NCBI GenBank assembly: GCA_013036105.1
Contig: JAAXCX010000001.1
Span: 62,001-126,000, forward strand
DNA from: Vulcanimicrobiota bacterium
GTDB taxonomy: Bacteria; Vulcanimicrobiota; Vulcanimicrobiia; Vulcanimicrobiales; Vulcanimicrobiaceae
DNA: 64,000 bases
Direction of reading: 5' to 3'
Both the position numbers and the translations under genes were made by a program. The notes under the pieces are model-generated. The model was not told where the DNA came from. It saw only the letters and a program-made list of their open reading frames with translations, and did no database searches. Positions 43,594-60,246 of this stretch are shown in pieces; position 1 is the first letter of the stretch; each line of letters opens with the position of its first letter.

Positions 43594-43812
43594 ATGTTCG
43601 ACACAGCCGGTTCCCTCATGCGAGCGCTTGCGGGTGCGCGAACGGACCTCACGGCGGCAGCCGGGGCCGTATCGCGGTCGCAAACGGCATTTGGCTCGCC
43701 GCGCACCGACGGCGTCCTCGCATCCGCCGCGGATCGCGCAGTTTTTACCGAGGCCCTCCTCAATGCGGTTCATGCCCGCCTCGCGGAAATCAAAGCCGTC
43801 ACTCATGGATAA
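43594..43812 (+). CDS. Short FlgB-like rod protein (candidate)
   Basis: A 72-residue protein in the place of flgB, directly before flgC. FTEALLNAVHARLAEIKAVTHG resembles the C-terminal helix of FlgB, but canonical FlgB is about 130 residues, so this would be a reduced form. Position is the main argument. It overlaps flgC by eight bases. Confidence 0.5.
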   Translation: MFDTAGSLMRALAGARTDLTAAAGAVSRSQTAFGSPRTDGVLASAADRAVFTEALLNAVHARLAEIKAVTHG

Positions 43813-44137
43813 TCTCGATCTGTTACGTACGGCCGCGAGCGGCATGGATGCGCAACGCGCCGCGCTCGACGTTCTCGCGCGCAACGTTGCCGCTTCTCAG
43901 GCCGCGGGACCAAAAGGCTCTTACGAACGCCTTGTGCCGCAGTTCGCGATCGCAGAAGACGGCGAATCGCAGCGTGTCGTTTTTGCGGGCGCGATTCCCC
44001 AAAAAGACGACGGCGGCGGGATTCTGGCCGAGATGGTCTCCGTGCTCAATGCGTCGCGCGCGTACGAAGCGAACGCCTCGGTCTTCGAAATCGGAAAACA
44101 TTTGGCCGAGCGCACGATCGATATGGGGCGCTTGTGA
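43805..44137 (+). CDS. flgC: Flagellar proximal rod protein FlgC
   Basis: A 110-residue rod protein. DLLRTAASGMDAQRAALDVLARNVA is the conserved N-terminal helix, and GGILAEMVSVLNASRAYEANASVFEIGKHLAERTIDMG is the C-terminal coiled-coil helix of FlgC/FlgG proteins. The core is shorter than usual (FlgC is about 134). It would polymerise on FliE inside the basal body. GTGA overlap with fliE. Confidence 0.88.
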   Translation: MDNLDLLRTAASGMDAQRAALDVLARNVAASQAAGPKGSYERLVPQFAIAEDGESQRVVFAGAIPQKDDGGGILAEMVSVLNASRAYEANASVFEIGKHLAERTIDMGRL

Positions 44138-44415
44138 CGACGTTTGTGCCCGACGTTGCGGGTCCGTTCCCGACGATATCGCGCACCGTCCCCACTGCCG
44201 CGCCGCCGGCGGACGCATTCGGTAAAGCGATGGACGATCTGGGTTCGGTTTTGAGTTCGGCCGGCGCCGCCGAAGATCGCTTCGCGTCGGGTGCGGGCGA
44301 TCTTCAAGAAGCTGTCTACGAACGTGCGCGCGCCGACGTTGCGTTGGCCGTCGCAACAGCGGCAGCTCAGCGAACGGCGCAGGCGCTGCAAGCGATCTTC
44401 ACGATGCAGGTGTAG
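44134..44415 (+). CDS. fliE: Flagellar hook-basal body protein FliE
   Basis: A 93-residue protein of normal FliE length, with a disordered start and a helical C-terminus: DLQEAVYERARADVALAVATAAAQRTAQALQAIFTMQV. FliE joins the MS ring to the rod and is the first exported substrate. GTG start overlapping flgC by four bases; fliF begins three bases later. Confidence 0.85.
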   Translation: MTTFVPDVAGPFPTISRTVPTAAPPADAFGKAMDDLGSVLSSAGAAEDRFASGAGDLQEAVYERARADVALAVATAAAQRTAQALQAIFTMQV

Positions 44416-44418
44416 CGC

Positions 44419-45882
44419 GTGCAGCTCGCCCGGCTGTTCGAATCGTGGAACCGCTTGCCAAAAGGTGCGCGGCTGGCAGCTTTGCCGGCGCTGGCAGCCG
44501 TTGTTGTCATCTCCGTCATCGCCGCGGTCGCGGCGCATCCGCAGCGCGTGCCGCTGTTCTCGTCGGCTCTGCATGCCGAACAGCTCAGCGAGATCGAAGA
44601 GCGGCTCGCCGGCTGGAACGTGCCGTTTACGCCCATGACCGATAACGTCTTGGTGCCGGCCGGCCGCCGCGGCGATCTCTTGCTGCGTCTCTCGCTCGCC
44701 GGCGTGCCGCATGCGCACGTCGAGAGCTCGGGCGATCTGCTGGATAAAGTCGGCGCGCTGACGCCGCAGTCGGTGATCGACGCGCAAGCCCGCGACGGCT
44801 TAGCGGGTGACATAGAGTTGGCGCTGCGCGGAATCGACGGCGTGGCGGACGCCAAGATCATCGTCGCTCCAGCCAAGGCGGCGTATTTTGCGGACGAAAC
44901 CGCGCACGATGCGAGCGCCAGCGTGCGCTTGCGCCTGCAGCCCGGCGCGCATCTTTCATCAAACGCCGTGGACGGCATTCGGTCGTTCGTCGCGGCAAGT
45001 GTCGCAGGCCTGGACAGCCGGCGCGTGACGATCGTCGACGATCGCGGAATCGCGCTTGGCGATTCGATCGAGAGCGGCGACGCAAACGATCTTCAATCAT
45101 CTTTGCAATCGGCGCTCGACGCCGCCGTCGGCGCCGGCGCGACGATCGTGCGCGTGCACGTGGATTACGATCGCCGGGCGCTGCAAAGCTCGGTTGAGCG
45201 GCGCCTCCCCTCGGGGAGTGCGGCGATCGACGGAACGCTGCAGCGCGAACGGTACGATGGGGGCGGCAAACACTACGAACGCTCGGAACAGCAGTTGGAC
45301 CGGGGGAGCGAGACCCGGCAATTTTCCGCGACGTCGGCCGGAGCGCGAATCGCGCGCATAACGGCGGCGGTATTCGTCGATGCCGCGCGTGGCGCCGACC
45401 TCTATCAAGTTCGCGCGCTGGCAGCCGCCGCACTCGGCATCGATCCGCATCGCGGCGATTCACTCGAGGTCGGAGCGATCGCATTCGCGCACGCGGCTGT
45501 GCCGCGAAAGGACGGGTGGTGGCTCGCGTACGGCGCGATCGTGCCGCTCTTACCGACGCTGGTTAGTGCGCTGGCAGCTCTCGTCGCATTGCGTTGGAGT
45601 ATTCCGGCACTGGGCGCATTGCTGCGTCCGCTGATAGAACGGTCGCGCATAGCGCGCGGCGCCGCCGCGGTGTCGGGCATCCCCGCGGCCAAGGTGCGCG
45701 GCGCGCTTAAGGACGAGCCGCCGCATGCAGCGGCCGCGATCATCAGCGCGCTGCCGGCGTCAACGGCTGCAGCGGTTCTGGACATGTATCCGCCGGAAGA
45801 ACGCTCGGCGATCGTGCGCCGCATGCAGCGTCCGCTTTCGCCGCTGCTCGCGGATCCGGAGAGTTTCATTGCACACGCCTGA
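44419..45882 (+). CDS. fliF: Flagellar MS-ring protein FliF with FliG-like C-terminal segment
   Basis: A 487-residue FliF. One membrane helix (about 18-39) precedes the ring-building domains: VPLFSSALHAEQLSEIEERLAGWNVPF and GDLLLRLSLAGVPHA; SVRLRLQPGAHLSSNAVDGIRSFVAASVAGLDSRRVTIVDDRG follows. A second helix lies at about 370-392. After it, residues of about 422-470 (GALKDEPPHAAAAIISALPASTAAAVLDMYPPEERSAIVRRM) resemble the FliG/MgtE-N helical repeat rather than the usual acidic FliG-binding tail. No separate fliG is found. This looks like a natural FliF-FliG fusion lacking the FliG torque domain. GTG start. Confidence 0.88.
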   Translation: MQLARLFESWNRLPKGARLAALPALAAVVVISVIAAVAAHPQRVPLFSSALHAEQLSEIEERLAGWNVPFTPMTDNVLVPAGRRGDLLLRLSLAGVPHAHVESSGDLLDKVGALTPQSVIDAQARDGLAGDIELALRGIDGVADAKIIVAPAKAAYFADETAHDASASVRLRLQPGAHLSSNAVDGIRSFVAASVAGLDSRRVTIVDDRGIALGDSIESGDANDLQSSLQSALDAAVGAGATIVRVHVDYDRRALQSSVERRLPSGSAAIDGTLQRERYDGGGKHYERSEQQLDRGSETRQFSATSAGARIARITAAVFVDAARGADLYQVRALAAAALGIDPHRGDSLEVGAIAFAHAAVPRKDGWWLAYGAIVPLLPTLVSALAALVALRWSIPALGALLRPLIERSRIARGAAAVSGIPAAKVRGALKDEPPHAAAAIISALPASTAAAVLDMYPPEERSAIVRRMQRPLSPLLADPESFIAHA

Positions 45883-46345
45883 CGAATTTCGGAGCTTGGC
45901 GGACCTGCTGCGCGAGGAACAGTTTCTTGCCGCGCCGTCGACCGAAGCGATCGAAAACGCGGCCGTCGATGCGCCCGATCTGAGCGGCGAGATCGCCGCA
46001 GCTCGCGATGTACGCTTGTTCCACGCGCGAGTTGAAGAGGCGATCGAATCGGCGGTCGCGACCCTGCGATGCGACATCGCAGCCGAAGTTATCGGCCGCG
46101 AGTTACAGCTCGCCCCCGCGTCGATCGCCGAGATCGTGCGGCGCGCGCTGTGGCGTTTCCATGCAGAGTCTCCGGTTCGCGTGCGCGTGCATCCCGAGGA
46201 CATTAGCGCGCTGGCAGAGGACGGTATCCAAACCGTTGCCGATTCCGGTCTGCGCCGTGGCGATGCCGTTTTGGAACTCGGCGCCGGCACGATCGATGTT
46301 ACGCTCGGCGTCCGGCTGGATGCCGTTCTGCGAGCGTACCGGTGA
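45869..46345 (+). CDS. fliH: Flagellar export stator FliH-like
   Basis: A 158-residue protein with the FliH/YscL C-terminal fold: EEAIESAVATLRCDIAAEVIGRELQLAPASIAEIVRRAL, then VRVRVHPEDISALAEDGI and DAVLELGAGTIDVTLGVRLDAVLRAYR. FliH links the export ATPase to the C ring. It is short (FliH is usually about 230), lacking most of the N-terminal region. Starts with TTG at 45869, overlapping fliF by 14 bases; GTGA overlap with fliI. Confidence 0.82.
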   Translation: MHTPDEFRSLADLLREEQFLAAPSTEAIENAAVDAPDLSGEIAAARDVRLFHARVEEAIESAVATLRCDIAAEVIGRELQLAPASIAEIVRRALWRFHAESPVRVRVHPEDISALAEDGIQTVADSGLRRGDAVLELGAGTIDVTLGVRLDAVLRAYR

Positions 46346-47589
46346 TCGCTTATGGTTCCGTCGTCTCGGCGCGCGCCTCCGCCATAGAAGCGCGTCTGCC
46401 CGCGGCGACGGTCGGCTCGGGCGTGCGCATCGCTTGCGCCCGCGGCGTGCTGTACGGCCGCGTCGCAGCCCTTTGCGACGGCACGATCCTTGTGACGCCG
46501 CACGGCGCAATTGACGGAATTGCGCCGGGGAACGTGATTTGTACCGACGCCGCCGCACTCGAAGCGCCGCTAGGGCTCTGCTCACTGGGACGGTCTTTCG
46601 ATGCCAACGGCAAACCGCTCGATGGGAAACGCGCTGTGCTTCCGCGCCGGCGAATCGGCGTTGCGCCTCCGCCGCCGCAGACACGTCGCGCTATCTGCCA
46701 ACCTTTTTGGACAGGCGTTGCGGCGGTAGACTCGCTGCTCACGGTCGGCACGGGCGCGCGCGTCGGCATCTTCGGCAGCGCGGGCTCGGGGAAATCCACG
46801 CTCCTCAATGCGCTCGTGCGCGGTTCGCAGGCAGATGCAATCGTCATCGCCCTCATCGGCGAGCGGGGCCGCGAAGCCGAAGAGTGGCTGCGCGGCATCC
46901 CGGATCGCGCAACCCTGTATTGCGCGACCGGCGATCGCCCGGCGGCCGAACGCGCCGGAGCCGCACAGCTTGCGATGTCGCAAGCAAACGCCCTGCGATC
47001 GCGCGGCTTGCACGTCCTGCTGATCGTCGATAGTCTGGCGCGGCTCGCCGCGGCGCTGCGCGAGATCGCCGCCGCAGCCGGTGAGGGCGCCGGTCGCGGC
47101 GGATATCCGCCGCGCGTTTTCGCCGAGATCGCCTCGTTCACGGAAATGGCGGGCGCCTTCCAAACCGGATCGATAACGCTTTTTGCAACCATTCTGAATG
47201 ATGGCGACGATCGCGATCCGGTCAGCGAAGCTGCGCGCGCTTTGCTCGACGGTCACGTGCAGCTTTCAACGGTTCTCGCCGGCGCGGGGAAGTTTCCGGC
47301 GATCGACGTGACGGCCAGCGTGAGCCGGACGATGCATGCGGTCGTGAGCGCGGAGCACGCGCGCGATGCCGCCGTCGTGCGATCGGCGATTGCGGCGTTG
47401 GCGCAGTCGAACGACGCGCGGTTGCTCGGGATGCTCTCACAGTCTGACGCCGACTCAGCCGCCGATCGGGAGCACGCGATCGAACGTCTCTTGTACGGCG
47501 GCGCCGTCGATCCAAAGACTGCGGTACAGCGCCTGCGCGAGCTCGCAGCATACTTGGAGGAAAAGACATCGAACTGCCTGCCGCGCTGA
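46342..47589 (+). CDS. fliI: Flagellar export ATPase FliI
   Basis: A 415-residue ATPase related to the F1 beta subunit. Walker A is GSAGSGKST (residues 145-153), Walker B is VLLIVDSLARLAAALREI, and GYPPRVFAEIASFTEMAG is a FliI/YscN hallmark, as is the IALIGERGREAEEWL strand. It drives unfolding and release of export substrates. No FliJ gene follows. Confidence 0.93.
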   Translation: MIAYGSVVSARASAIEARLPAATVGSGVRIACARGVLYGRVAALCDGTILVTPHGAIDGIAPGNVICTDAAALEAPLGLCSLGRSFDANGKPLDGKRAVLPRRRIGVAPPPPQTRRAICQPFWTGVAAVDSLLTVGTGARVGIFGSAGSGKSTLLNALVRGSQADAIVIALIGERGREAEEWLRGIPDRATLYCATGDRPAAERAGAAQLAMSQANALRSRGLHVLLIVDSLARLAAALREIAAAAGEGAGRGGYPPRVFAEIASFTEMAGAFQTGSITLFATILNDGDDRDPVSEAARALLDGHVQLSTVLAGAGKFPAIDVTASVSRTMHAVVSAEHARDAAVVRSAIAALAQSNDARLLGMLSQSDADSAADREHAIERLLYGGAVDPKTAVQRLRELAAYLEEKTSNCLPR

Positions 47590-47597
47590 GCGCGGTC

Positions 47598-48059
47598 TTG
47601 CGCCGCATCGAGCAGATCGATCCGGCTCAGGGCCCGGAGATGGCCGCGCCTTTTCCGGCGCTTCCGGCCGGAGACTTCGACGGATTGATCGCCTCGAGCG
47701 CTGCGGCTTGGCATGTTGACAAAGCGCTCGTAAAAGCCGTTGTCGCCAACGAATCGGCATTTAATTCGCGCGCAACGTCGGCGACGGGCGCGCAAGGGTT
47801 AATGCAGCTGGAACCGGCGACGGCAGGGCAGTTGGGTGTGACCGACGCCTACGATCCGGCGCAAAACGTCAACGGGGGAACGCGCTACATTCGCGGACTC
47901 CTCGACCGTTTTCGCGGAGACGTACCGTTGGCCATAGCCGCCTACAATGCAGGGCCGGGCGCGGTCGAGAAGTATGGCGGCATTCCGCCTTATGCAGAAA
48001 CTCGCGCGTACGTCGAAAACGTCCTGGAGAGCTACCGCCGCTATAAGTTGCGGCCTTAA
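47598..48059 (+). CDS. Lytic transglycosylase (SLT), rod-associated
   Basis: A 153-residue soluble lytic transglycosylase. VKAVVANESAFNSRATSATGAQGLMQLEPATAGQLGV holds the catalytic Glu52, and LAIAAYNAGPGAVEKYGGIPPYAETRAYVENVL completes the domain. In flagellar loci this enzyme opens peptidoglycan for the rod, the job of FlgJ. TTG at 47598 is the first conventional start, but GGAGG at 47556-47560 lies seven bases before an in-frame ATC at 47568, which would add ten residues; the real start may be that ATC. Confidence 0.88.
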   Translation: MRRIEQIDPAQGPEMAAPFPALPAGDFDGLIASSAAAWHVDKALVKAVVANESAFNSRATSATGAQGLMQLEPATAGQLGVTDAYDPAQNVNGGTRYIRGLLDRFRGDVPLAIAAYNAGPGAVEKYGGIPPYAETRAYVENVLESYRRYKLRP

Positions 48060-49614
48060 CCGGCTGCTTTGCGCGCTGTGCGCGCTGACGCTTGCCTTGC
48101 CGCTTGCGGCGCGCGCGCAGTCCGCGCCGGATCTGACGAGCGCGCTCGCGGCGCGCAAAGCAGCGATCGCTGCGATGCACGTCCGCGATGCGCATTCGGT
48201 CGAGCTGGCCGGCATGGTGAGCGGCGCCGCCCTGCAAGGGATCTTTCACAGCTGGCGATCCGGCGGCGATCAGCGCTACGACGAGAATACCGGCGTCCGC
48301 CGCGAATCGAATCTGCGTCTGGGCGGACGCGAGTATGCCGTCAACGAGAACGGCGCGATTCGAGAGCTGCGGGGATTGCTTCTGCGGCGGCAGCGGACGG
48401 AAGATTTCATCGAGAGCGACGGGTTCGTCGCCCAGCCGCAATTCGATCGTTTCTTGGGAGAACAGCAGCTTCCCGGCGGCCGCGACGTCTATGCCATCGC
48501 CGTCGCTCCGCCGCAAGGGCAGCCGGAAACCATCTATCTCGATCGCAAGACGTCGATGCTGGATCGCATTGCCTATGACGATACGGACGGAACCGATACG
48601 CAGGATTACTACGATTACAAGCTTTTTGCGGGAGTGCTGATCGCGCAGCGCTCGGTTGAATCCAACGGTGACCACGCGTTCGATCTCACGCGCGACACGC
48701 TCAAGGTGATCATCGACCGTCCCATCGCCGCCGCTACCTTCACGCTGCCCGAAGCTCCGGCGGTGCAAACGGCAGTGCCGGTAACGGTGCCGCTGGAAGT
48801 GCACGACGCTCACGACTACGTGCGCGTGAAAATTTCGGGACGCGAGTACACGTTTCTGCTCGACAGCGGCGCGCAGGCGGTGGTCCTTGACGCGCACGTT
48901 GCCAAAGAGGCCGGATTAACGCCGCAGGGTCAGCTCGAAGTTGCGGGCGCACAGCGCACGGGCGGGCTCGGAGTCGCGGCACTGGATTCGATTCACATCG
49001 GCGGCGTCTCGCTGCCCGTGCGCATGGTGACCGTGCTCGACTTGCGCGGAGTTACAGGCGCGCAGCCCATTGACGGTATTCTGGGCTACCCGTTTTTCGC
49101 TGAGGCTGAAGTCAGGATCGATCCCGACGCGCAGACGATGACCTTCGCCAAACCGGGCGCGCTGAAGACCGACGGCACGAGCTTCACCCTCGATAGCGAT
49201 CGCGAGCTGACCGAACTTCAGGCCAGGGTCAACGGCACCGACGGGCGCTTTGTGATCGACACGGGCAACGGCAACGAGCTTTTGGTGTATGGTCCCTTCG
49301 TCCGCGCGCATGCCGGTCTCATCGAATATGCCGGCGGTGGATTCGCCAACAACATGGGCGTCGGCGGATCGGCTAGCGCCGTAGCTGCGGTCGTCGCCGA
49401 ACTCGACATCGGGCCGTACCGATTTTTTAACAACTACGCCAACGTCATGCTCGGTACGCAAGGTGCGTTCGCCGATCGCTTCGCGGCGGGCAATATCGGT
49501 CTGGGCCTGCTCAAGAATTTCGTCCTCACCTTCGATTTGGCCAACGCCAAGCTCTACGTGAAACCGGCGGCGCACTTCGATGACGGGCGATATCGTACAG
49601 TTCGGCAACAATAG
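47992..49614 (+). CDS. Secreted retropepsin/pepsin-like aspartyl protease family protein
   Basis: About 540 residues with a hydrophobic signal segment (LLCALCALTLALPLAARAQ), an N-terminal lipoprotein-carrier-like region (about 45-250), and two aspartyl-protease lobes: FLLDSGAQAVVLDAHVAK (Asp291) and FVIDTGNGNELLVYG (Asp423), with ILGYPFF as the flap/hydrophobic-Gly motif. Both catalytic D-S/T-G triads are present. The start is uncertain: ATG 47992 gives a long basic lead, while a CTG at 48064 would give a standard signal peptide. It sits inside the flagellar locus with no known flagellar role. Confidence 0.78.
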   Translation: MQKLARTSKTSWRATAAISCGLNRLLCALCALTLALPLAARAQSAPDLTSALAARKAAIAAMHVRDAHSVELAGMVSGAALQGIFHSWRSGGDQRYDENTGVRRESNLRLGGREYAVNENGAIRELRGLLLRRQRTEDFIESDGFVAQPQFDRFLGEQQLPGGRDVYAIAVAPPQGQPETIYLDRKTSMLDRIAYDDTDGTDTQDYYDYKLFAGVLIAQRSVESNGDHAFDLTRDTLKVIIDRPIAAATFTLPEAPAVQTAVPVTVPLEVHDAHDYVRVKISGREYTFLLDSGAQAVVLDAHVAKEAGLTPQGQLEVAGAQRTGGLGVAALDSIHIGGVSLPVRMVTVLDLRGVTGAQPIDGILGYPFFAEAEVRIDPDAQTMTFAKPGALKTDGTSFTLDSDRELTELQARVNGTDGRFVIDTGNGNELLVYGPFVRAHAGLIEYAGGGFANNMGVGGSASAVAAVVAELDIGPYRFFNNYANVMLGTQGAFADRFAAGNIGLGLLKNFVLTFDLANAKLYVKPAAHFDDGRYRTVRQQ

Positions 49615-49653: not shown

Positions 49654-50193
49654 ATGACGATCTCCGAACAATTGCATTTCAGCATCTTGAGCGCACCCAT
49701 CGCGTGCGCGGATCGCCGCGCACTCTCGCAAGCGTGGTACTCTGCGCTGTATCGTCCCAAAGACGCGAAAGCTCCGCTCAGCCCTCGAGGGCTTGCACGT
49801 CAGAAGAGAACGGCGGCCCACTTGGCGCCTGCCCCAAGATCTTCGAGCCCGCCGGCTCTGGGGACGATTTCACGGCCCGGGCGCTTCCCCGCGTTAGCGG
49901 CACCGGTAGCGCCGGAAGAACGCCGGACGCCGCCGCTGCGCCTGGCGCGCCAAATCGAGCAGCTCGTCCGGCAGCGCTCGAGTACGCGAACCGCGGCGAC
50001 ATTTCTTTTGGATGGGACGCGCGCCCGGGTTCGCGTGCTGGTCGTCGCAGCCGGCGGATCCGTGCGGTTGATTGCCATATGCTCCAAACGCGTGCGCGAT
50101 GCGGTCGCCTGCGCCTTGGAGCAAGCACGCTACGCATCCGCCGCGCACGGGATCGTCTTGCACGCAAGCATGCGGGAGGACGTGCGGTGCTGA
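49654..50193 (+). CDS. Hypothetical protein, possible FliK-like hook/rod-length protein
   Basis: A 179-residue protein with a proline/alanine-rich, probably disordered first half (about 40-95) and a compact C-terminal part: TAATFLLDGTRARVRVLVVAAGGSVRLIAICSKRVRDAVACALEQARYASAAHGIVL. That layout and pattern recall the substrate-switching domain of FliK, and the position just before a rod-type gene agrees. The similarity is weak. It overlaps the next gene by seven bases. Confidence 0.5.
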   Translation: MTISEQLHFSILSAPIACADRRALSQAWYSALYRPKDAKAPLSPRGLARQKRTAAHLAPAPRSSSPPALGTISRPGRFPALAAPVAPEERRTPPLRLARQIEQLVRQRSSTRTAATFLLDGTRARVRVLVVAAGGSVRLIAICSKRVRDAVACALEQARYASAAHGIVLHASMREDVRC

Positions 50194-50876
50194 TCTCCGA
50201 TTCGACCGCACGCGCTCTGGAAAACGTTGCGGCGCGCGAACGGGAATTGCTGCGTACGCTGCCTGCCGAAAACTCAACACTCGGGGATCCGTATGCCGCT
50301 CAGATTCCATGTGAACCGCCGCAAGGCACGTATTTCATCACGCGCGACGAAGCCGGCCGGCGTCTTTTCATGCGTCCCAACGGCCTGTATCTGAACGGAG
50401 CGAACCTCACCGATGGGAGCGGACGGGGGATTTTAGGATACACGAGTCCGGATGGAGCGCTGCAGCCGCTGCGAGTCGATCCGGTGGACGCATCGCTCGG
50501 CCTGGCGCAAAACGCGCGCGCCGGTTCCGATGGAACCATTACCTACGATCGAAGCGCTGTCGATCCCGCCACGGGGGCTCGCTCATTCCAGCATGTGACG
50601 ATCGGACGCGTCGCCGTAGCCCGTTTCCCCGCCGGTACGCTCCTGGATGGCGACGATAATTACGCGGCCGCGCCCGCCGGCATTGCGCCGCATATCGGCG
50701 TTCCGGGGGATGGCAGTTTTGCACCGCTGCAACCGCTCTTGCAGGCGGACAGAAACGGCGACTTGGATTCCGGACTCGCGCGGCTGCAAGAAGCGTATTT
50801 GGTATTGGACGCTCTGCGCGCGGCGGGCGCGGCGCAAGGAAACGTTCAGAAAACCGTGATGGACTTGCTGAAGTGA
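50187..50876 (+). CDS. FlgF/FlgG-like flagellar rod protein, N-terminally reduced
   Basis: A 229-residue protein. The middle matches the FlgG/FlgF D1 region: RRLFMRPNGLYLNGANLTDGSGRGILGYTSPDG, then FQHVTIGRVAVARFPAGTLLDGDDNYAAAPAG and PHIGVPGDGSFAPLQP. The canonical N-terminal rod motif (the 'ANNLANxxT' helix) is not evident, and the C-terminus ends in a helix (LDSGLARLQEAYLVLDALRAAG) unlike the standard FlgG coil. It is likely an unusual distal rod subunit. GTG start; GTGA overlap with the next gene. Confidence 0.7.
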   Translation: MLISDSTARALENVAARERELLRTLPAENSTLGDPYAAQIPCEPPQGTYFITRDEAGRRLFMRPNGLYLNGANLTDGSGRGILGYTSPDGALQPLRVDPVDASLGLAQNARAGSDGTITYDRSAVDPATGARSFQHVTIGRVAVARFPAGTLLDGDDNYAAAPAGIAPHIGVPGDGSFAPLQPLLQADRNGDLDSGLARLQEAYLVLDALRAAGAAQGNVQKTVMDLLK

Positions 50877-51646
50877 AGGCCCTGGGATTTGCGCGGCGCA
50901 GCTGCGTGGTGAACGGACTGCGCGTACGTCCGAGTTTTTTTCAATCGCGGTCGACCTTGCCCGTCTCGGCTGCGTGCCTCGTTGCCAACGCGGCACGGCA
51001 GACGTTGTCAGAGCTCCTGGGCGCCGAGGTGACGTTAAAACTCCTCGAACCGGTCATTCCCGACGCCGCGGCCTGGAGCAGCATCGGGGCCAGCGCGCTG
51101 ATCTTCGCAGTACGCGGCGCGCAGTCGGACGCCGCCATCGTGTTGCGCGCGCACGACGCGCTTACGCTCGCATGTGCGGCGCTGGGCGAATGCGTTGAAT
51201 CTGCGCGCAGCCTTTCGACCATTGAAGCCGAGGTGACTGCGCGCATCGCTTCGGCGCTCTGCGCTTGCCTCACGGCAGTTTGCGGATTGCCCGACGCACG
51301 GCACGCCGATCGCGTCAAGACTCTGGAGGGCTACGTCACGTATTTTGAATTGGTCGTAGAAGACCCGGCGCGCGTGCGCATTGGAATCGCGCTCTCGCGC
51401 GAGCCGGCATCGCACATCGTGCCCAAACTGAGCACCGCCCACTTGCACGAGATTGACGTGCGCCTCGGCGCGGAGGTCGCGCATGGATTTTTGCCTGCTG
51501 CCTCGATACTCTCGCTTCAGCCCGGCGATGTGTTCAAGCTCGATTCGGCGCTGGGCGATGCCGCGTGCCTTTGCGCGGACGGCGCCATCGTGGCCCGTGG
51601 CCAGTGCGGAAACCTGGGCGCGCGCCGCGCGTTCGCGATGCGATGA
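50873..51646 (+). CDS. FliM/SctQ-like C-ring protein
   Basis: A 257-residue protein whose C-terminus is a SpoA domain: LHEIDVRLGAEVAHGFLPAASILSLQPGDVFKLDSALGDAACLCADGAIVARGQCGNLGARRAF. The first 170 residues are FliM-middle-domain-like. Canonical FliM is about 330 residues and begins with a CheY-binding LSQxEIDALL motif, which is absent here. It would form the sorting platform with FliN without a chemotactic switch. ATGA overlap with fliN. Confidence 0.8.
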   Translation: MKALGFARRSCVVNGLRVRPSFFQSRSTLPVSAACLVANAARQTLSELLGAEVTLKLLEPVIPDAAAWSSIGASALIFAVRGAQSDAAIVLRAHDALTLACAALGECVESARSLSTIEAEVTARIASALCACLTAVCGLPDARHADRVKTLEGYVTYFELVVEDPARVRIGIALSREPASHIVPKLSTAHLHEIDVRLGAEVAHGFLPAASILSLQPGDVFKLDSALGDAACLCADGAIVARGQCGNLGARRAFAMR

Positions 51647-51900
51647 CGGCGGATCGTGACCTCGACGTGCTGGGCGGCGTCAACGTGCGCGTTTCGGTCG
51701 AAGCGGGCGCGTGCACGATGCCGATCGCGCAGCTCCTCAAATTGGGTACCGGCTCGCTCGTCGCTCTCGACCGGGCCGCCGGTTCCCCGGTCGACTTGCT
51801 GGTGAACGGAAAACTGATTGCGCGCGGCGAGATTGTGGCCATTGACGATAATTATGGCCTGCGGATCACGGAGCTCGCCGCAAGATCCGCGACGCCGTGA
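51643..51900 (+). CDS. fliN: Flagellar C-ring protein FliN
   Basis: An 85-residue SpoA-domain protein: LGGVNVRVSVEAGACTMPIAQLLKLGTGSLVALDRAAGSPVDLLVNGKLIARGEIVAIDDNYGLRITEL. Standard FliN size and sequence pattern. It docks FliH and the ATPase to the base of the export gate. Confidence 0.92.
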   Translation: MTADRDLDVLGGVNVRVSVEAGACTMPIAQLLKLGTGSLVALDRAAGSPVDLLVNGKLIARGEIVAIDDNYGLRITELAARSATP

Positions 51901-51910
51901 GGAAGCTCTG

Positions 51911-52567
51911 ATGGAAGATCTGTTGACGATCGCCGGCCGCGCTCACGCAGCGCTGCCGCTCGACGTGCTGGCCGCTCTTACCGCGTTGACCGTGGCGCCA
52001 TTCGCGCTCGTCATGTGCACGTCGTTCGTTCGCATCGTGGTCGTGCTTTCGCTCGTGCGCTCCGCAATCGGGGCTGCGGCGCTTCCGCCCAACGCGGTGC
52101 TCACCGGGCTCGCGCTCGTGTTGAGCGCGTCGATCATGGCCCCGGCATTTTCGCGCATGTCGCGCGACGCGATCGACCCCTATGCGAAAGGAAAAATATC
52201 GCAGTCGCAGTTTCTGAATCGCGCGGTACTTCCGTTGCGCGAGTTCATGCTGCGCCAGTCGCACACCGCCGACATCGAACTCTTTGCGCGCGTTGCCCGG
52301 CGTTCGCCCGAAGCGCCGCAGAAGACGCCGCTTTCCGTGCTCGTACCGGCCTACGTCGTGGGCGAGCTGCGCGACGCCTTTGCGATCGGATTCGCGCTCT
52401 ACTTGCCGTTTGTCGTCATCGACTTGGCCGTCGCCTCGATTTTGATGGGACTGGGAATGTTCATGCTGAGTCCGCCGGTCGTTTCGCTGCCGGTGAAACT
52501 CTTGCTCTTCGTCATGGCCGACGGATGGGCGCTCGTCTGTGGAGGCGTCGCCGCGAGTTTTCGTTAA
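51911..52567 (+). CDS. fliP: Flagellar export gate protein FliP
   Basis: A 218-residue membrane protein: LTALTVAPFALVMCTSFVRIVVVLSLVRSAIG, LVLSASIMAPAF, LVPAYVVGELRDAFAIGFALYLPFVVIDLAVASILMGLGMFML and SLPVKLLLFVMADGW are the FliP signatures. Five FliP subunits form the export channel. No signal peptide and no FliO gene were found. It starts 10 bases after fliN; metF follows. Confidence 0.95.
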   Translation: MEDLLTIAGRAHAALPLDVLAALTALTVAPFALVMCTSFVRIVVVLSLVRSAIGAAALPPNAVLTGLALVLSASIMAPAFSRMSRDAIDPYAKGKISQSQFLNRAVLPLREFMLRQSHTADIELFARVARRSPEAPQKTPLSVLVPAYVVGELRDAFAIGFALYLPFVVIDLAVASILMGLGMFMLSPPVVSLPVKLLLFVMADGWALVCGGVAASFR

Positions 52568-52576
52568 GAGAAGGTC

Positions 52577-53473
52577 ATGCGAATCAGCGACGCGCTGGCG
52601 GCGCAGCGTCCGTTTTTTTCGTTCGAGTTCTTTCCGCCGAAGAACGATGAAGCCCACGCGCAGCTGTTGGAAACCGCGCGGACACTGCGCGAGCTGCGGC
52701 CGGCGTTTGTTTCGGTAACATACGGCGCCGGCGGGTCGACGCGTTCGCGCACCGTCGAGGTCTCCAAGCAGATCCGCCACGACGTCGGACTCAACGTCAT
52801 GGCGCACGTCACCTGTGTCGGAAGCTCGCGCTCGGATTTGCGCTTACTGCTCGGCGACCTGGAGGCGGCCGGCATCGAGAACGTGCTCGCGCTGCGAGGC
52901 GATCCGCCCCGCGATACGGCTTTCGTACAGCCGGCCGGCGGCTTCGCGCACGCCGACGAGCTCGTCGCGATGATCAAGCGCACCTTCGATTTTTGCGTTG
53001 GCGGAGCGTGCCATCCCGAAAAGCATCTCGAAGCGCCCGATTTCGAAACCGACATCAAGCATCTGCGCGGAAAGGTTGACGCGGGCGCGGAATTTCTCAT
53101 CACGCAGCTTTTTTTCGATAACGACAAGTACTTTGCGTTTGTCGAGCGCGCTCGGGCGGCCGGCATAGGCGTCCCGATTCTGCCCGGCATCATGCCGATT
53201 ACGAACTACGAACAGATCAGGCGCTTTACCGCTCTGTGCGGGGCGACGATTCCGCCGAAGCTTCTCGTCGAGCTCGAGGAACGCAAGTCCGAACCTAAGG
53301 CGGTGGAAGATCTGGGCGTTGCTTTTGCGACGCTCCAGTGCGCCGACTTGTTGCGCCGCGGTGCGCCGGGCATTCATTTTTACACGCTCAACAAGTCACC
53401 GGCGAGCCGCGCTATCGTCAGCTCGTTGATAGCGGCGACGGCCTGGAGTCCGTCCTTCTCGGCAATTCACTAG
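52577..53473 (+). CDS. metF: 5,10-methylenetetrahydrofolate reductase
   Basis: A 298-residue FAD-dependent TIM-barrel enzyme that makes 5-methyl-THF for methionine synthesis. FFSFEFFPPKNDEA (with the proton-relay Glu), VSVTYGAGGSTRSRT, MAHVTCVGSSRSDL, NVLALRGDPP, GGACHPEKHLEAP and GAEFLITQLFFDNDKYF are all family motifs. Its insertion between fliP and fliQ splits the export-gate genes. AGAGAAGG precedes the ATG. No SAM riboswitch is possible in the nine-base gap, so it probably relies on the fliP transcript. Confidence 0.96.
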   Translation: MRISDALAAQRPFFSFEFFPPKNDEAHAQLLETARTLRELRPAFVSVTYGAGGSTRSRTVEVSKQIRHDVGLNVMAHVTCVGSSRSDLRLLLGDLEAAGIENVLALRGDPPRDTAFVQPAGGFAHADELVAMIKRTFDFCVGGACHPEKHLEAPDFETDIKHLRGKVDAGAEFLITQLFFDNDKYFAFVERARAAGIGVPILPGIMPITNYEQIRRFTALCGATIPPKLLVELEERKSEPKAVEDLGVAFATLQCADLLRRGAPGIHFYTLNKSPASRAIVSSLIAATAWSPSFSAIH

Positions 53474-53510: not shown

Positions 53511-53777
53511 ATGGAGGCGTTTGACGGACTGCTGCATCACGCGCTCGTGCTTGCGGCGCTGTTGTGCCTGCCGGTGCTCGGCGTAGCCACGCTGATTGGT
53601 ATGCTCGTCGCAGTCGCGCAAGCCGCGACTCAAGTGCAGGAACAGACGCTCTCGCTGCTGCCCAAACTCGTCGCGGTCGGCGCCTGCGTTGCACTGCTCG
53701 GGGGTTTCGGCATGCGTGCCTGCGAGGCGCTGCTGCTCGAGGCGATCGGGCAGATGCATGCGCTCATTGCGGGATGA
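53511..53777 (+). CDS. fliQ: Flagellar export gate protein FliQ
   Basis: An 88-residue two-helix membrane protein: HHALVLAALLCLPVLGVATLIGMLVAVAQAATQVQEQTLSLLPKLVAVGACVALLGGFGM. The QVQEQTLSLLPKL loop is diagnostic. Four FliQ subunits wrap the FliP-FliR core. ATGA overlap with fliR. Confidence 0.93.
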   Translation: MEAFDGLLHHALVLAALLCLPVLGVATLIGMLVAVAQAATQVQEQTLSLLPKLVAVGACVALLGGFGMRACEALLLEAIGQMHALIAG

Positions 53778-54487
53778 GCAGCGCGGCGCTGCTCGTTTTC
53801 GCGCGCTGTACGGGATTCGTTTTTCGGGCGCCGGGATTGTCGCATCCGTCGGTGCCGGCGCCGGTGCGCGCGGGGCTGGCGTTGGCAATGACCGGCGCAC
53901 TCGCGAGCCGGGTCAGGCCCTCGGGGGTAGACGGCGTGGCTCTGGTCGCGGCGGCCGGACTGGAATTGGCGATCGGCGCCGCGATCGGGATCGCCGCTTC
54001 CATATTGTATGACGGCGCGTACGCGGGCGGCCGCGCGCTGGACGACTACGTCGGCATTCGCGGAAGCGTCCCCAACGCACAAATATATGCGGCTTCCGGC
54101 TTCGGCCGTATTTGGTCGCTCGTGTTCACCGCCGGGTTCTTTTTGCTGGGCGGTTACCGGATCGCCATCCTGGCGTTCGCGCACTCATTTGACGCCTTTC
54201 CGCCCGGCAGCATTCCGCAAGCGCACGATCTCTACGCATTCGCGCTGACTTTGCCGGCATCGATCGTCGAGGCTGCGATCCTGGTTGCGGGACCCGCGAT
54301 CGCTCTAGTGTTCGTCGCGCAGATCGCGCTCGGCTCGCTGGCGCGCGTGACCCCCCGCTTCAGCGGTTTCACGCTGACGTTTCCGGTGATGTTCGGGGCG
54401 GCGCTTTTGGCAACGATCGCGGGGGTGCCCGCGCTCTTCGGGCGCAGCGGGATTCCCTGGCTGAGATTGGTTTTCGTTCATGGCTGA
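53774..54487 (+). CDS. fliR: Flagellar export gate protein FliR
   Basis: A 237-residue protein with about six membrane helices: FARCTGFVFRAPGLSHPSVPAPVRAGLALAMTG, LELAIGAAIGIAASILYDGAYAGGRALDD and LVFVAQIALGSLARVTPRFSGFTLTFPVMFGA. It completes the FliP5-Q4-R1 export channel. It overlaps flhB by eight bases. Confidence 0.92.
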   Translation: MSSAALLVFARCTGFVFRAPGLSHPSVPAPVRAGLALAMTGALASRVRPSGVDGVALVAAAGLELAIGAAIGIAASILYDGAYAGGRALDDYVGIRGSVPNAQIYAASGFGRIWSLVFTAGFFLLGGYRIAILAFAHSFDAFPPGSIPQAHDLYAFALTLPASIVEAAILVAGPAIALVFVAQIALGSLARVTPRFSGFTLTFPVMFGAALLATIAGVPALFGRSGIPWLRLVFVHG

Positions 54488-55475
54488 CGAGAAGCAGTTC
54501 GAAGCCACGCACTCGCGGTTGGAAAAAGCGAAGCGCGAGGGCGACGTCGCGCGGTCGCAAGATCTGTGCGCGCTCTTCGCCTTCGCGGGAGGGGGCGCGG
54601 CTGTCGCCGCCATCGTTCCGTCGCTGGCCGGAGCTTTTCGCCTGAGTCTTGTTTTGGCGGCCCGCGGCGAAAGCTGGCTCGGCGCTGCACAGCTCGTCAC
54701 GACCCTCGTACTCTTGCCCGTCGCTGCAGCCGGCGCTGCGTCGCTCGCATGCGCGACGCTGCAAGGAGGCCTGACGCTAACCGTACCGCGCGCAAAGTTC
54801 GAGCGGCTCTCGCCGGTTGAAAACGGCAAACGCATTCTTTCACGCGAAGCGCTGTTTTCTGCGCTGCGATCGCTCGCCGCGTTCGCGTGCGCGGCGTGTG
54901 CGGCGGTTCCGGCGCTGCGAGACGTGGCGGGGGGCGCGCTGCGCGGTGCGAGTATGACGGATTTGACCCGCGCGGCCTGGCAGGGCTCGCTCTTTGCGGC
55001 CGGCGCGGCATGCATTTCAGCCGGAGCTTTTGCGGTTGGCGATTACTTCACTCAGATGAAGCGGCGGCGCAGCCGCCTGCGCATGTCGCACGATGAAATG
55101 CGGCGCGACCGGAAAGAACAGGACGGCGACCCGCTGGCGCGCAGCAGACGCCGCTCGTTGCACCGCACGCTGGCGCGCGGCTCGCTGCGCCGCGTAAAAG
55201 ACGCCGCTTTCATCGTCTGCAACCCCGAGCACATCGCGGTTGCGCTGGAGTACCGGCCGCCGTCGGTCCCCGTTCCTCGTGTGCTGGTGCGGGCGGCCGA
55301 CGAAACCGCCGCTCGCGTACGCGCGATTGCAACAGAGTGCGGCATTCCGCTCGTGCGCAACGCCGCGCTCGCGCGCATCCTTTACGAAACCCGCGTCGAG
55401 CAGTATATTCCGGCGGAGTGCTATGTGGCGGTCGCGGAGATCGTCGCGCAGCTGCGCGGGATGCCATGCCGGTGA
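54480..55475 (+). CDS. flhB: Flagellar export switch protein FlhB, with NPEH cleavage motif
   Basis: A 331-residue protein: DEKQFEATHSRLEKAKREGDVARSQDL is the typical N-terminus, four membrane helices follow, and the cytoplasmic domain has MKRRRSRLRMSHDEMRRDRKEQDGDP. The self-cleavage motif NPTH, needed for substrate switching, reads NPEH here (Asn248-His251 in VCNPEHIAVALEY). Asn and Pro, the reactive pair, remain, so cleavage is possible. It overlaps flhA by ten bases. Confidence 0.93.
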   Translation: MADEKQFEATHSRLEKAKREGDVARSQDLCALFAFAGGGAAVAAIVPSLAGAFRLSLVLAARGESWLGAAQLVTTLVLLPVAAAGAASLACATLQGGLTLTVPRAKFERLSPVENGKRILSREALFSALRSLAAFACAACAAVPALRDVAGGALRGASMTDLTRAAWQGSLFAAGAACISAGAFAVGDYFTQMKRRRSRLRMSHDEMRRDRKEQDGDPLARSRRRSLHRTLARGSLRRVKDAAFIVCNPEHIAVALEYRPPSVPVPRVLVRAADETAARVRAIATECGIPLVRNAALARILYETRVEQYIPAECYVAVAEIVAQLRGMPCR

Positions 55476-57487
55476 ACCGTATCGCGACATACGCGTTTGC
55501 GGCGCTGCTGCTGTGCATCGTCGGGATCTTGATCGTTCCGCTGCCGCCCGCGCTCCTGGACGTGCTGCTGGGAATCAATATTTTCGCCTCGGCGTTAGTG
55601 CTGCTGCTGAGCGTGACGATCGAACAACCGTTGCAGTTTTCGGCCTTCGCGCCGGCACTGCTGATAGCCACGCTCTTCCGGCTCTCGCTCGAAGTCTCCG
55701 CGACGCGTTTGATTCTGACGCAAGGTCACGAACCGGGCGGCGTGGGCGCTATCATTCCGGCCTTCGGCGCCTTTGTCGTTCGGGGAAACTTGGTCGTCGG
55801 GCTGATCGTCTTCCTTATTCTGATTACCATTCAATTTGTCGTCATTGCCAGCGGTTCGCAGCGGGTCGCTGAAGTGGCCGCGCGGTTTACCCTCGATGCG
55901 CTTCCCGGAAAACAAATGGCGATTGATGCCGACGTGCACGCCGGAGCGCTAGATTCCGAAGGAGCGCGCGAAAAACGCGAGCTGGTCCAGCGGGAAGCGG
56001 ACTTTTACGGAGCCATGGACGGAGCCGGAAAGTTCGTGAAGGGCGATGCGATAGCTGCGCTTGTGATCGTGGCTTTGAATCTGGCCGGCGGCGTGATCGT
56101 CGGCATCGCGTATCGCGGAATGCCGCCGGCCGATGCCTTTGCAACCTTCGCGCTGCTTTCCATTGGAAACGCGTTGGTGACGACGCTGCCCGCCTTCCTG
56201 ATATCGACGTCCATGGGCATGATGGTGACCCGCGTTTCGGCCGATGGTTCGCTCGGGTCGGATTTGGCGGCGCAGCTGTTCGCGCGGCCGGAGATTTTGC
56301 GCGCCGCCGGCGGCCTTTTGATCGCGTTGGCGCTCGTGCCGGGGTTACCAAGAGCGTTATTCGCAACGCTGGGCTGCGCGGCGTTGGCCGGCGCGCACCT
56401 CGCGAGGAAGCGCCAGCGAGAGGGCGAGCTCCGCAACGCGCGCGACCGCGATCAGGCAAAGCGCCAAGCGATCCGGCGGCCTGAAATGGCGCTGAGTTTG
56501 GTCGGCGTGGACGCGATCGCGATCGAATTCGGTTCCCATCTGGGTGCGTTGCTCGTGCCGCCGTCCGCCGAAGCGCTGCTGGATCGGATCGGCGAAGTGC
56601 GCCGCGCGCTCGCAGCCGAGATCGGCGTCGTGATTCCCGGCGTCCGCTTACGCGACGATCTTGCGCGTGATCCAGACTCTTATGCGATTCGCGTTCGCGA
56701 CGAACTGGCCGGCGAAGGCGTGCTCGATCTCGGCAAGCTCCTGGCGGTCGGCGACGCTGCGGCCATATCCGGAATCGGGGGAGAGACCGTTACCGAACCG
56801 GTCTACGGGTTTCCGGCGGCATGGATCGCGCCGGAACGGCGCGACGCCGCGTTGCAAAACGGGACGCTGGTCTTCGATCCGGTCTCCGTCATCGGCTCGC
56901 ATCTCGCCGAGGTCGCGCGAACGCACGCCGAGGCGCTCTTCGGACGGCAAGAGCTGCAGACGCTGCTCGAACATCTTAAAGCGACGGTTCCTACCGTTGT
57001 AAAAGAGATCGGAACCGAAGGATTGCCGTTCGCATCGGTGCATCGCGCTTTTGTCTTGCTTTTGCGCGAGCGCGCCTGGCCGCGCGATCCGGTCGCCGTA
57101 TTGGAGAGCATGATCGAGTGCGCCGCGTCGTCGCGCGACCCGCGGGAACTTGCCGAATCTGCCCGGCGGTGTGCGATTCCGGCGTTGCTGCGCCGCAAAC
57201 AGACGCCCGAGCTGGAGCCGCTGCTTCTCGATCCGCAGCTCGAGCAGGCCATCGCGTCGGGCGGAGCTTCGGCCGACCCGCAACTCGTCATGCGGATCCG
57301 CGACCAGGCCGAAAGCTACGCAAAGGCCGTTCCTCCGCAGCGCGCGGCGATCGTCTGCACGAGCGCGGTCCGGCCGCTCGTCGCGGACTTTCTGGCGCGC
57401 TCGGGGCTTCGCATCGCCGTATTCAGTTACGCCGAGGTGCCTCCTGAGGTGCGGCTGGCGCCGGCCGGAATCGTGAAGGCGGCCTGA
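55466..57487 (+). CDS. flhA: Flagellar export gate protein FlhA
   Basis: A 673-residue protein with eight membrane helices and a large cytoplasmic ring domain. LLDVLLGINIFASALVLLLSV, ATLFRLSLEVSATRLIL, VVIASGSQRVAEVAARFTLDALPGKQMAIDADVHAG (FHIPEP-type region) and READFYGAMDGAGKFVKGDAIA are conserved. It forms the nonameric gate that receives chaperone-substrate complexes. The last gene of the export block; only 48 bases separate it from secD. Confidence 0.96.
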   Translation: MPVNRIATYAFAALLLCIVGILIVPLPPALLDVLLGINIFASALVLLLSVTIEQPLQFSAFAPALLIATLFRLSLEVSATRLILTQGHEPGGVGAIIPAFGAFVVRGNLVVGLIVFLILITIQFVVIASGSQRVAEVAARFTLDALPGKQMAIDADVHAGALDSEGAREKRELVQREADFYGAMDGAGKFVKGDAIAALVIVALNLAGGVIVGIAYRGMPPADAFATFALLSIGNALVTTLPAFLISTSMGMMVTRVSADGSLGSDLAAQLFARPEILRAAGGLLIALALVPGLPRALFATLGCAALAGAHLARKRQREGELRNARDRDQAKRQAIRRPEMALSLVGVDAIAIEFGSHLGALLVPPSAEALLDRIGEVRRALAAEIGVVIPGVRLRDDLARDPDSYAIRVRDELAGEGVLDLGKLLAVGDAAAISGIGGETVTEPVYGFPAAWIAPERRDAALQNGTLVFDPVSVIGSHLAEVARTHAEALFGRQELQTLLEHLKATVPTVVKEIGTEGLPFASVHRAFVLLLRERAWPRDPVAVLESMIECAASSRDPRELAESARRCAIPALLRRKQTPELEPLLLDPQLEQAIASGGASADPQLVMRIRDQAESYAKAVPPQRAAIVCTSAVRPLVADFLARSGLRIAVFSYAEVPPEVRLAPAGIVKAA

Positions 57488-58912: not shown

Positions 58913-60246
58913 TGTTTTTCCGCCGCCTCAATTGGAACATCGTCGGTTGGTTCCGGATCGTTTCGTATATTTCGTACGCGATTATTTTTGCCGGCCTTGG
59001 GCTCATGCTGTTCCGTTCGGTTACGGCGCCGGGGGGCGGATTCCAGCCGTCGCACGCGCTGCGTCTGGGCCTCTCGTTCACCGGCGGCACCGCGGTCGAC
59101 GTCGTTTTCACCAAGCCGGTCACGCAAGATCAGGTGCGCGAGGCCCTGACGAAGCTGCACGTTACCGACGAGCGCGTCACGACCGTCGGCCAGCCCGCGG
59201 GCCCCAACGCTTGGACGAAATACTCGATTGAAACGCAGACCGCATTCGGAAATAACACGGCCGCCCTGTGGAGCGCTCTGCAAGCCGTTGCGCCCGTCGA
59301 CCGGAATTCGTCTGCCGTAACCTCGGTCGGACCGACGCTGGGCAGCGAATACCTGACCAAGGCGATCGAGGCGCTGATTATCGCGCTGCTGATCCAGTTC
59401 ATCTACATCGCGTTCCGTTTCGGCTGGAACTACATCTTTGGTTTGGTGACCGTTATCGCGCTCGTGCGCGACGCCGCGATGATGATCGGCATCTACGCGC
59501 TGGCAGACAAACGCGCAGACGACGCGTTCCTGGCCGCGGTGCTCACGGTCATCGGCTATTCGGTCATGGACACGATCGTGATTCTCGATCGCATACGAGA
59601 AAACACCCGAGTGATGGCGGGGCAGCCGTACGACCGGATCGTCAACACGTCGATCCTGCAGACGATGACGCGTTCGTTCAATACGCTGGCGACCGTCGTG
59701 ATTACGCTGGTAGCATTGCTGGCGCTGGGCGGCGCATCGCTGCAGAACTTCGCGTTCGCGTTGCTGGTCGGCATCTGCTCGGGCGGATACCACTCGATCT
59801 TTTACTCGGCGCCGCTGGTGCTTTTTTTCCGCAAACGCCAACTCGACTCGGCCGCGCGCAAACGCGCGGCGGGCTTGGCTGCGCAAGGCAGCCGTTCCGC
59901 GCGCACCGTTGCGGAGAGCCGCGCGCTCGGCGCGCACTCGGGCATGGCGCGCGAAGACATCGTGGCGGCGCGCAAGGCGCGCCGCGAGAAAGCCAAAGCT
60001 TCGCGTACGGTGACGCCGGGTTCGCCCGCGCGTTACAAACGGAGGCGCGACGAGAACGCGGCTGCGGGCAACGAGCTCGCGCCGGCGGCAGCTGAAGATG
60101 CGGGCGCGATGGATCCGCTGGACGCGCAAGCCGCGGGCGGGGACGAAACCGCGTTCGATCAGGGCCACGAAGAAATCACCATGAATCTGGAAGGCTTCGA
60201 ACCGGAACGGCCGCTGCCACCGGATGACGCGCAGCGCGAAGAATAG
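58912..60246 (+). CDS. secF: Protein translocase subunit SecF with long charged C-terminal tail
   Basis: A 444-residue SecF. LGLSFTGGTAVDVVFTKPVT, SVGPTLGSEYLTKAIEALIIALL, ADDAFLAAVLTVIGYSVMDTIVILDRIRENTR and NTSILQTMTRSFNTLATVVITL are conserved. The core ends near residue 305; about 130 further residues form a charged, low-complexity cytoplasmic tail (for example ARKARREKAKASRTV, ending PERPLPPDDAQREE) not usual in SecF. The end overlaps the helicase gene by 23 bases. Confidence 0.93.
   Translation: MFFRRLNWNIVGWFRIVSYISYAIIFAGLGLMLFRSVTAPGGGFQPSHALRLGLSFTGGTAVDVVFTKPVTQDQVREALTKLHVTDERVTTVGQPAGPNAWTKYSIETQTAFGNNTAALWSALQAVAPVDRNSSAVTSVGPTLGSEYLTKAIEALIIALLIQFIYIAFRFGWNYIFGLVTVIALVRDAAMMIGIYALADKRADDAFLAAVLTVIGYSVMDTIVILDRIRENTRVMAGQPYDRIVNTSILQTMTRSFNTLATVVITLVALLALGGASLQNFAFALLVGICSGGYHSIFYSAPLVLFFRKRQLDSAARKRAAGLAAQGSRSARTVAESRALGAHSGMAREDIVAARKARREKAKASRTVTPGSPARYKRRRDENAAAGNELAPAAAEDAGAMDPLDAQAAGGDETAFDQGHEEITMNLEGFEPERPLPPDDAQREE

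Follow-up and report, generated by a model that had tools for sequence, protein, structure and literature searches.

A putative fusion of FliF with a shortened FliG middle domain points to a flagellar base retained for protein export in Eremiobacterota

Introduction

In the window analysed here, which is the whole stretch of 64,000 nucleotides, a flagellar-type export operon contains a gene that appears to be a natural fusion of FliF with the middle domain of FliG (FliG_M). We think it quite probable that this is so, and that FliF thereby docks a FliM/FliN ring whose task is export instead of rotation. Ordinary flagella are built differently: the C-terminal tail of FliF holds FliG_N, FliG_M connects to FliM/FliN, and FliG_C takes the torque from MotA/B. 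Here the MS-ring protein has no FliG-binding tail and ends in a shortened FliG middle domain, so that the chain would be reduced to FliF, FliG_M and FliM/FliN, and the C ring would therefore hang directly on the MS ring. The fusion thus suggests that a flagellar base has been kept for protein export rather than for swimming.

We met no earlier description of a natural FliF-FliG fusion in the literature that we searched, though one may exist elsewhere, and the searches made on type III secretion systems (T3SS) in Eremiobacterota/WPS-2 returned nothing on a fusion system. The features discussed below are collected in Table 1.

Table 1. Features of the fusion gene and of the export operon, with positions in the window.
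Feature	Residues	Position	Strand	Basis
fliF-fliG_M fusion gene	1-487	44419..45882	+	GTG start at 44419, TGA ending at 45882, 487 aa; Pfam YscJ_FliF, YscJ_FliF_C, FliG_M; homologues in relatives
Second membrane helix, predicted	~368-392	45520..45594	+	hydrophobic stretch read from translation
Variable linker	393-421	45595..45681	+	least conserved segment measured, pairwise identity 0.24
FliG middle domain, first ~45 of 76 profile positions	426-470	45694..45828	+	Pfam, hhalign, AlphaFold2 and Foldseek; conservation 0.72
EPPH in place of FliG EHPQ		45715..45726	+	ungapped alignment to FliG
FlgC-like rod protein		43805..44137	+	Flg_bbr_C 2.8e-4, Flg_bb_rod 1.4e-3 (above cut-off genome-wide); conserved position
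FliE		44134..44415	+	Pfam FliE 2.9e-5
FliH, short, TTG start	158 aa	45869..46345	+	Pfam FliH 3.2e-14; NCBIfam FliH matches
FliI/SctN-type ATPase		46342..47589	+	NCBIfam SctN 3.1e-99, FliI 2.7e-94
Lytic transglycosylase (SLT)		47598..48059	+	Pfam SLT 2.3e-28; conserved beside fliI
Retropepsin-like aspartyl protease, start uncertain		47947..49614	+	Pfam Asp_protease_2 3.2e-18
FlgE/F/G-like axial protein, diverged		50187..50876	+	D1-domain matches in relatives
FliM-like, middle domain and SpoA		50873..51646	+	Pfam FliMN_C 1.8e-9; predicted fold FliM, E 5e-11
FliN		51643..51900	+	NCBIfam fliN 91.6 vs 84.05 bits, above cut-off
FliP		51911..52567	+	NCBIfam fliP 229.6 vs 217.45 bits, above cut-off
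FliQ		53511..53777	+	NCBIfam fliQ 5.2e-15
FliR		53774..54487	+	operon position; conserved homologues
FlhB/SctU		54480..55475	+	NCBIfam SctU 1.1e-60, flhB 1.6e-51
FlhA		55466..57487	+	NCBIfam FlhA 3.4e-189 vs hrcV 1.9e-145; tree

The fusion protein and its tail

By its profile matches the fusion protein is a diverged FliF: Pfam recognises YscJ_FliF (residues 40-213, 5.5e-26) and YscJ_FliF_C (residues 269-356, 5e-11), both over their cut-offs, and the NCBIfam fliF equivalog cut-off is missed (85.4 vs 129.75 bits). Behind the predicted second membrane helix and the linker, FliG_M is matched with 3.6e-7 and 30.7 bits (cut-off 25), covering positions 4-48 of the 76 in the profile, which is only about its first two thirds. 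The protein stops after this domain, having neither FliG_C nor the charged torque helix, and FliG_N has no match anywhere in it. The C-terminal tail that binds FliG_N is absent and has been replaced; ordinary FliF tails in the same phylum end ...ENPDSIAKLVKLWLAE. A first-pass annotation had claimed that this FliF lacks its usual FliG-binding tail, and that residues of about 422-470 look like a helical repeat of FliG/MgtE-N type. The former claim is borne out by hhalign, which finds no relation between the fused tails and ordinary FliF. The latter was correct in pointing to FliG, with the match at residues 426-470, but what lies there is a truncated FliG_M instead of a generic repeat.

The comparison of the tail with the FliG_N, FliG_M and MgtE_N profiles had been set beforehand, and it returned a significant, though shortened, FliG_M. 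When taken alone, the tail scores 35.4 bits on FliG_M (1.3e-8) and 17.5 bits on MgtE_N (PF03448; 0.006), the latter below the cut-off of 25.9. Because the Pfam match is to FliG_M, the FliG part is the middle domain, and not FliG_N or a full FliG. For the test of the FliG_M profile, 40 related tails were collected together with 12 ordinary FliFs of the same phylum; all 40 tails match at E ≤ 0.1 and none of the ordinary FliFs does, so that chance is excluded as the source of the match. Aligned to the FliGs of the phylum by hhalign (E 5.7e-6), the tails place EPPHAAAAII on EHPQTIALIL. The structure prediction of the tail alone also came out FliG-like. The AlphaFold2 model is helical, its core reaching a pLDDT of 88-91; Foldseek ranks seven FliG entries (probability 1.00) ahead of everything else in the PDB, and the model fits 3usy_A with 1.0 Å over 50 columns. 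The Foldseek E-values of about 0.01-0.1 (best 0.012) are modest, given how small the domain is.

FliG_M and MgtE_N are related domains, and the tail could accordingly be a generic ARM/MgtE_N-like helical module for assembly of the FliF ring or for another partner, and not a FliG_M holding FliM. The MgtE_N profile does match 36 of the 40 related tails weakly, but FliG_M lies about 18 bits above it in the tail of the window and is the higher of the two in nine of ten further tails scanned singly; among the five tails of family f3 (class-level relatives), one is slightly higher on MgtE_N. In single-sequence hhalign the scores are close (6.9e-5 for FliG and 1.5e-4 for MgtE), whereas the alignment covers 89 columns with FliG and 55 with MgtE, which Foldseek lists after FliG. 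The EHPQ motif is not intact, yet the f3 tails keep the E-x-P and the following A, as their motif E-[SAL]-P-[HRQ]-[AT]-[AI]-A is nearer to the EHPQTIA of FliG. Moreover, FliM/FliN proteins are found in all tail-bearing genomes, many of which have no FliG. The tails share a related ARM-like repeat and a weak match with the intracellular N domain of MgtE, but they have no CBS or transporter domains and they sit behind FliF. We thus regard a generic module as unlikely. What favours FliG_M over MgtE_N is its higher profile score, the longer alignment, and the place of the tail behind FliF in an operon with FliM/FliN genes; these points support reading the fused piece as the truncated FliM-binding domain FliG_M.

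It could also be that the tail is a normal FliF C-tail that has diverged, with a cryptic FliG encoded elsewhere. Normal FliF tails do have a helix of E-x-P-x-x-[IV]-A type; nevertheless, an ordinary diverged tail was rejected on the hhalign and FliG_M comparisons given above. As for the cryptic FliG, the 95% completeness of the own assembly would leave some room for it, but FliG_C is missing in 30 of the 49 relatives with a fusion FliF, and we consider this explanation extremely improbable. A candidate at G000:C1:281330 was also rejected; it belongs to an MgtE_N/CBS/PRC protein in the own genome, where FliG_C is absent. The gene of this protein (G000:C1:280742-282112; L150:443-1813, minus strand) encodes MgtE_N, CBS and PRC-barrel domains with no transporter part recognised. 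The protein scores 28.5 bits on FliG_M, and its MgtE_N repeats are matched by both FliG_M and FliG_N.

The export operon

The operon encodes, in an order that is nearly constant across the family, FlgC-like, FliE, FliF, FliH, FliI, a lytic transglycosylase, an aspartyl protease, FlgE/F/G-like, FliM-like, FliN, FliP, metF, FliQ, FliR, FlhB and FlhA. Judged from these genes, the machine is a flagellar-type T3SS, as FlhA, FliP and FliN lie closer to the flagellar than to the injectisome families and FliE and rod proteins are present. FlhA reaches 630 bits on the flagellar family vs 486 on hrcV, though for FliI and FlhB the scores on SctN/SctU are slightly better than those on the flagellar families. 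No gene for a secretin, SctD or a needle subunit was recognised within the operon, and injectisome membership was rejected because FlhA is far from SctV in the tree. The axial protein has no Pfam match in its own copy; in relatives it matches the FlgE/F/G D1 domain with 1.9e-5 and 4.4e-4, below the cut-off of that profile.

The middle domain of the FliM-like protein is predicted with a pLDDT of about 95 and is matched by Foldseek to the FliM of the C ring (Table 1); therefore, the domain that meets FliG_M is present. We infer that the FliF tail would bind this FliM-like protein. In FliG, the EHPQ motif sits at the contact with FliM, where it pairs with the FliM GGXG motif (PMC4642947). Both motifs have drifted here: EHPQ has become EPPH, with the E kept, and GGXG reads FGE by eye. 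This drift is consistent with an altered, possibly matched contact between the FliF tail and FliM.

A second locus lies at the edge of the same contig, outside the window (G000:C1:1-2450; L161), where a divergent lipoprotein gene accompanies those for FlgF, FlgG and a sigma-70-family factor. It is conserved in relatives, and its FlgG has homologues in nearly all of them. Genome-wide, Flg_bb_rod matches only this FlgF and FlgG and the FlgC-like protein of the operon, which is why no hook gene was found. No filament gene was found either.

Missing rotor and filament parts

The claims that the charged torque helix is missing and that there is no stand-alone fliG nearby can be extended to the whole genome. 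FliG_C has no match in the fusion protein or elsewhere in the assembly (95% complete), and the single other FliG_M-like match is the MgtE-type protein described above. Profile searches of the own genome also found no MotB plug, flagellin or FlgI, the P-ring protein. With FliG_C and MotB absent no torque would be expected, and the absence of MotB, flagellin and FlgI strengthens the reading of the first-pass annotation, a C ring that would anchor export without rotating.

The same pattern extends to many of the relatives that have a tailed FliF. All four of FliG_C, MotB plug, flagellin and FlgI are absent in 29 of 49, and 24 of those 29 genomes are at least 90% complete. The 30 relatives in which FliG_C is missing include G040 (82% complete), which has other flagellar genes, and the 19 in which it is present mostly carry it beside a second, ordinary flagellar FliF. 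FliMN_C proteins are kept in all 49, and none was found in four same-genus genomes without FliF. A FliM/FliN ring without FliG needs another anchor, for which the FliF tail is the obvious candidate.

That the ring is still turned, by an unrecognised torque protein or stator, seems to us hardly credible. Such a motor would explain why FliM and FliN are kept, and the stators were probed by the MotB plug profile alone; however, besides the losses in the own genome, the restriction of Flg_bb_rod matches to FlgC/F/G-like proteins leaves nothing to turn. Vulcanimicrobium alpinus, a cultured strain of Eremiobacterota with an outer membrane, has no flagella and no flagellin gene (PMC9758169), which likewise speaks against a working motor. 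The ring presumably does not turn and the machine presumably secretes.

Conservation and distribution

Of 60 relatives, 49 encode a fusion-type FliF, and in most of these the match includes the tail. When the most conserved stretch of the tail was used as the query against bacterial and archaeal genomes, one for each species, 58 relatives were obtained; those with a name are Eremiobacterota, except two labelled Rhodospirillales. Genomes G013 and G021 are placed in the family of the window, and G014 also carries the fusion system. In families f1 and f2, no other 39-residue window of the protein is as well conserved as the FliG_M segment (0.75 vs a median of 0.50), which comes directly behind the linker, the least conserved segment (0.24). 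These data support the fusion as a conserved trait of the whole class in these soil bacteria, and not as a peculiarity of one genome.

They also bear on whether the system is a decaying flagellar relic, with the fusion an accident in a dying gene cluster. Loss does occur, as G001, G005 and G006 are without FliF and FlhA and G005 still has FlgG. Against decay in the window, the operon is intact with its order kept across family and order, the tail is the best conserved part of the protein, and the system is present throughout class-level relatives, always together with FliM/FliN. We therefore hold a relic to be very unlikely.

The three same-genus genomes just mentioned are 94-98% complete and lack FliM/FliN as well; G006 has a FlgF-like gene. 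These absences, together with such remnants, indicate that the genus is in the course of losing the system. In genome G028, two systems of the fusion type occur together with a FliF/FliG set of the ordinary flagellar kind (L046, L047, L067).

Origin of the fusion

The FlhA tree unites the fusion systems in one clade (100/100), which is sister (100/100) to the FlhA of other Eremiobacterota families, both being apart from SctV. As FlhA groups with flagellar FlhA of Eremiobacterota and not with injectisome SctV, the fusion probably arose secondarily. The FliF tree agrees with such an origin, and an ancestral, un-split FliF-FliG is disfavoured, since by FlhA and FliF the system falls among Eremiobacterota systems in which FliF and FliG are separate. 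In the FliI tree, by contrast, the sister lineage groups with the true flagella and the fusion systems are left outside on a long branch; it gives no support to a derived fusion, so the polarity is probable and not certain.

Several sister genomes carry separate FliF and FliG. In the three of their FliGs that were read (L060, L062 and L063, in G056, G057 and G058), D or E stands where E. coli has the torque-helix residue R281, and searches of G057 and G058 found no MotB plug, flagellin or FlgI. This suggests a series of steps from a rotor to an idle rotor, and from there to a FliG cut to its FliM-binding piece and fused to FliF, in which sister systems with a separate FliG are possible intermediates. 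The wider picture would be that the class carries, beside or instead of a true flagellum, a secretion machine without hook or filament whose C ring is bolted to the membrane ring by FliF-FliG_M, and that the sisters in other families of the phylum, which have a full-length FliG with D or E at R281 and in two genomes no detected MotB or flagellin, are intermediates; we give this picture about an even chance.

Proposed working and comparison with known systems

In the arrangement that we propose, the C ring would most likely be a mere platform for the FliH-FliI ATPase and for the substrates of the FlhAB-FliPQR gate. The machine would send out rod proteins, and perhaps further cargo, through a rod that has neither hook nor filament, and nothing would rotate.

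The closest precedent is a laboratory product, the Salmonella fliFGd-f fusion, in which FliF without its C-tail is joined to FliG without FliG_N, as here, and the C ring still assembles; this fusion keeps FliG_C, and the cells swim and switch (PMC6445934). The fusion described here is, in contrast, natural and class-wide, and has no FliG_C and a shortened FliG_M. With the flagellar C ring (8WIW, 8VIB, 8UMX) it shares the MS-ring domains, a FliG_M-like fold, the FliM middle domain and SpoA, FliN and FlhAB-FliPQR; it differs from an ordinary flagellum in lacking the FliF C-tail, FliG_N and FliG_C, and no MotB, flagellin or FlgI was found. Basal bodies of Buchnera aphidicola also keep the base and the export gate after loss of flagellin and motor genes; unlike the present system, they have a separate FliG, P/L-ring proteins and a partial hook, in an unrelated lineage (PMC8109811). 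The non-flagellar T3SS of early-branching Myxococcales is likewise a flagellum-derived export system without FliG and MotAB, and it is also without FliE and FlgBC (PMC3459982), whereas here FliE, FlgC/F/G-like proteins and a flagellar FlhA that does not group with SctV are kept.

The system could be a natural experiment that parts the two jobs of the C ring, as export platform and as rotor. In the course of evolution FliG seems to have lost its torque and linker parts and to have retained only the piece facing FliM, which makes it possible to test which part of FliG export by itself requires. The system would also represent a second route, independent of the injectisome, by which a flagellum became a machine that does not rotate, and the same phylum may hold intermediates.

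Additional observations

The metF gene (window 52577-53473) lies between fliP and fliQ in the same order across much of the family. The transglycosylase and protease genes (window 47598-49614) are inside the export operon and are kept in many relatives; the aspartyl protease may have a role in the export system. The stretch at window 60224-62206 looks by eye like a putative RecQ-type helicase with an N-terminal HIRAN-like domain.
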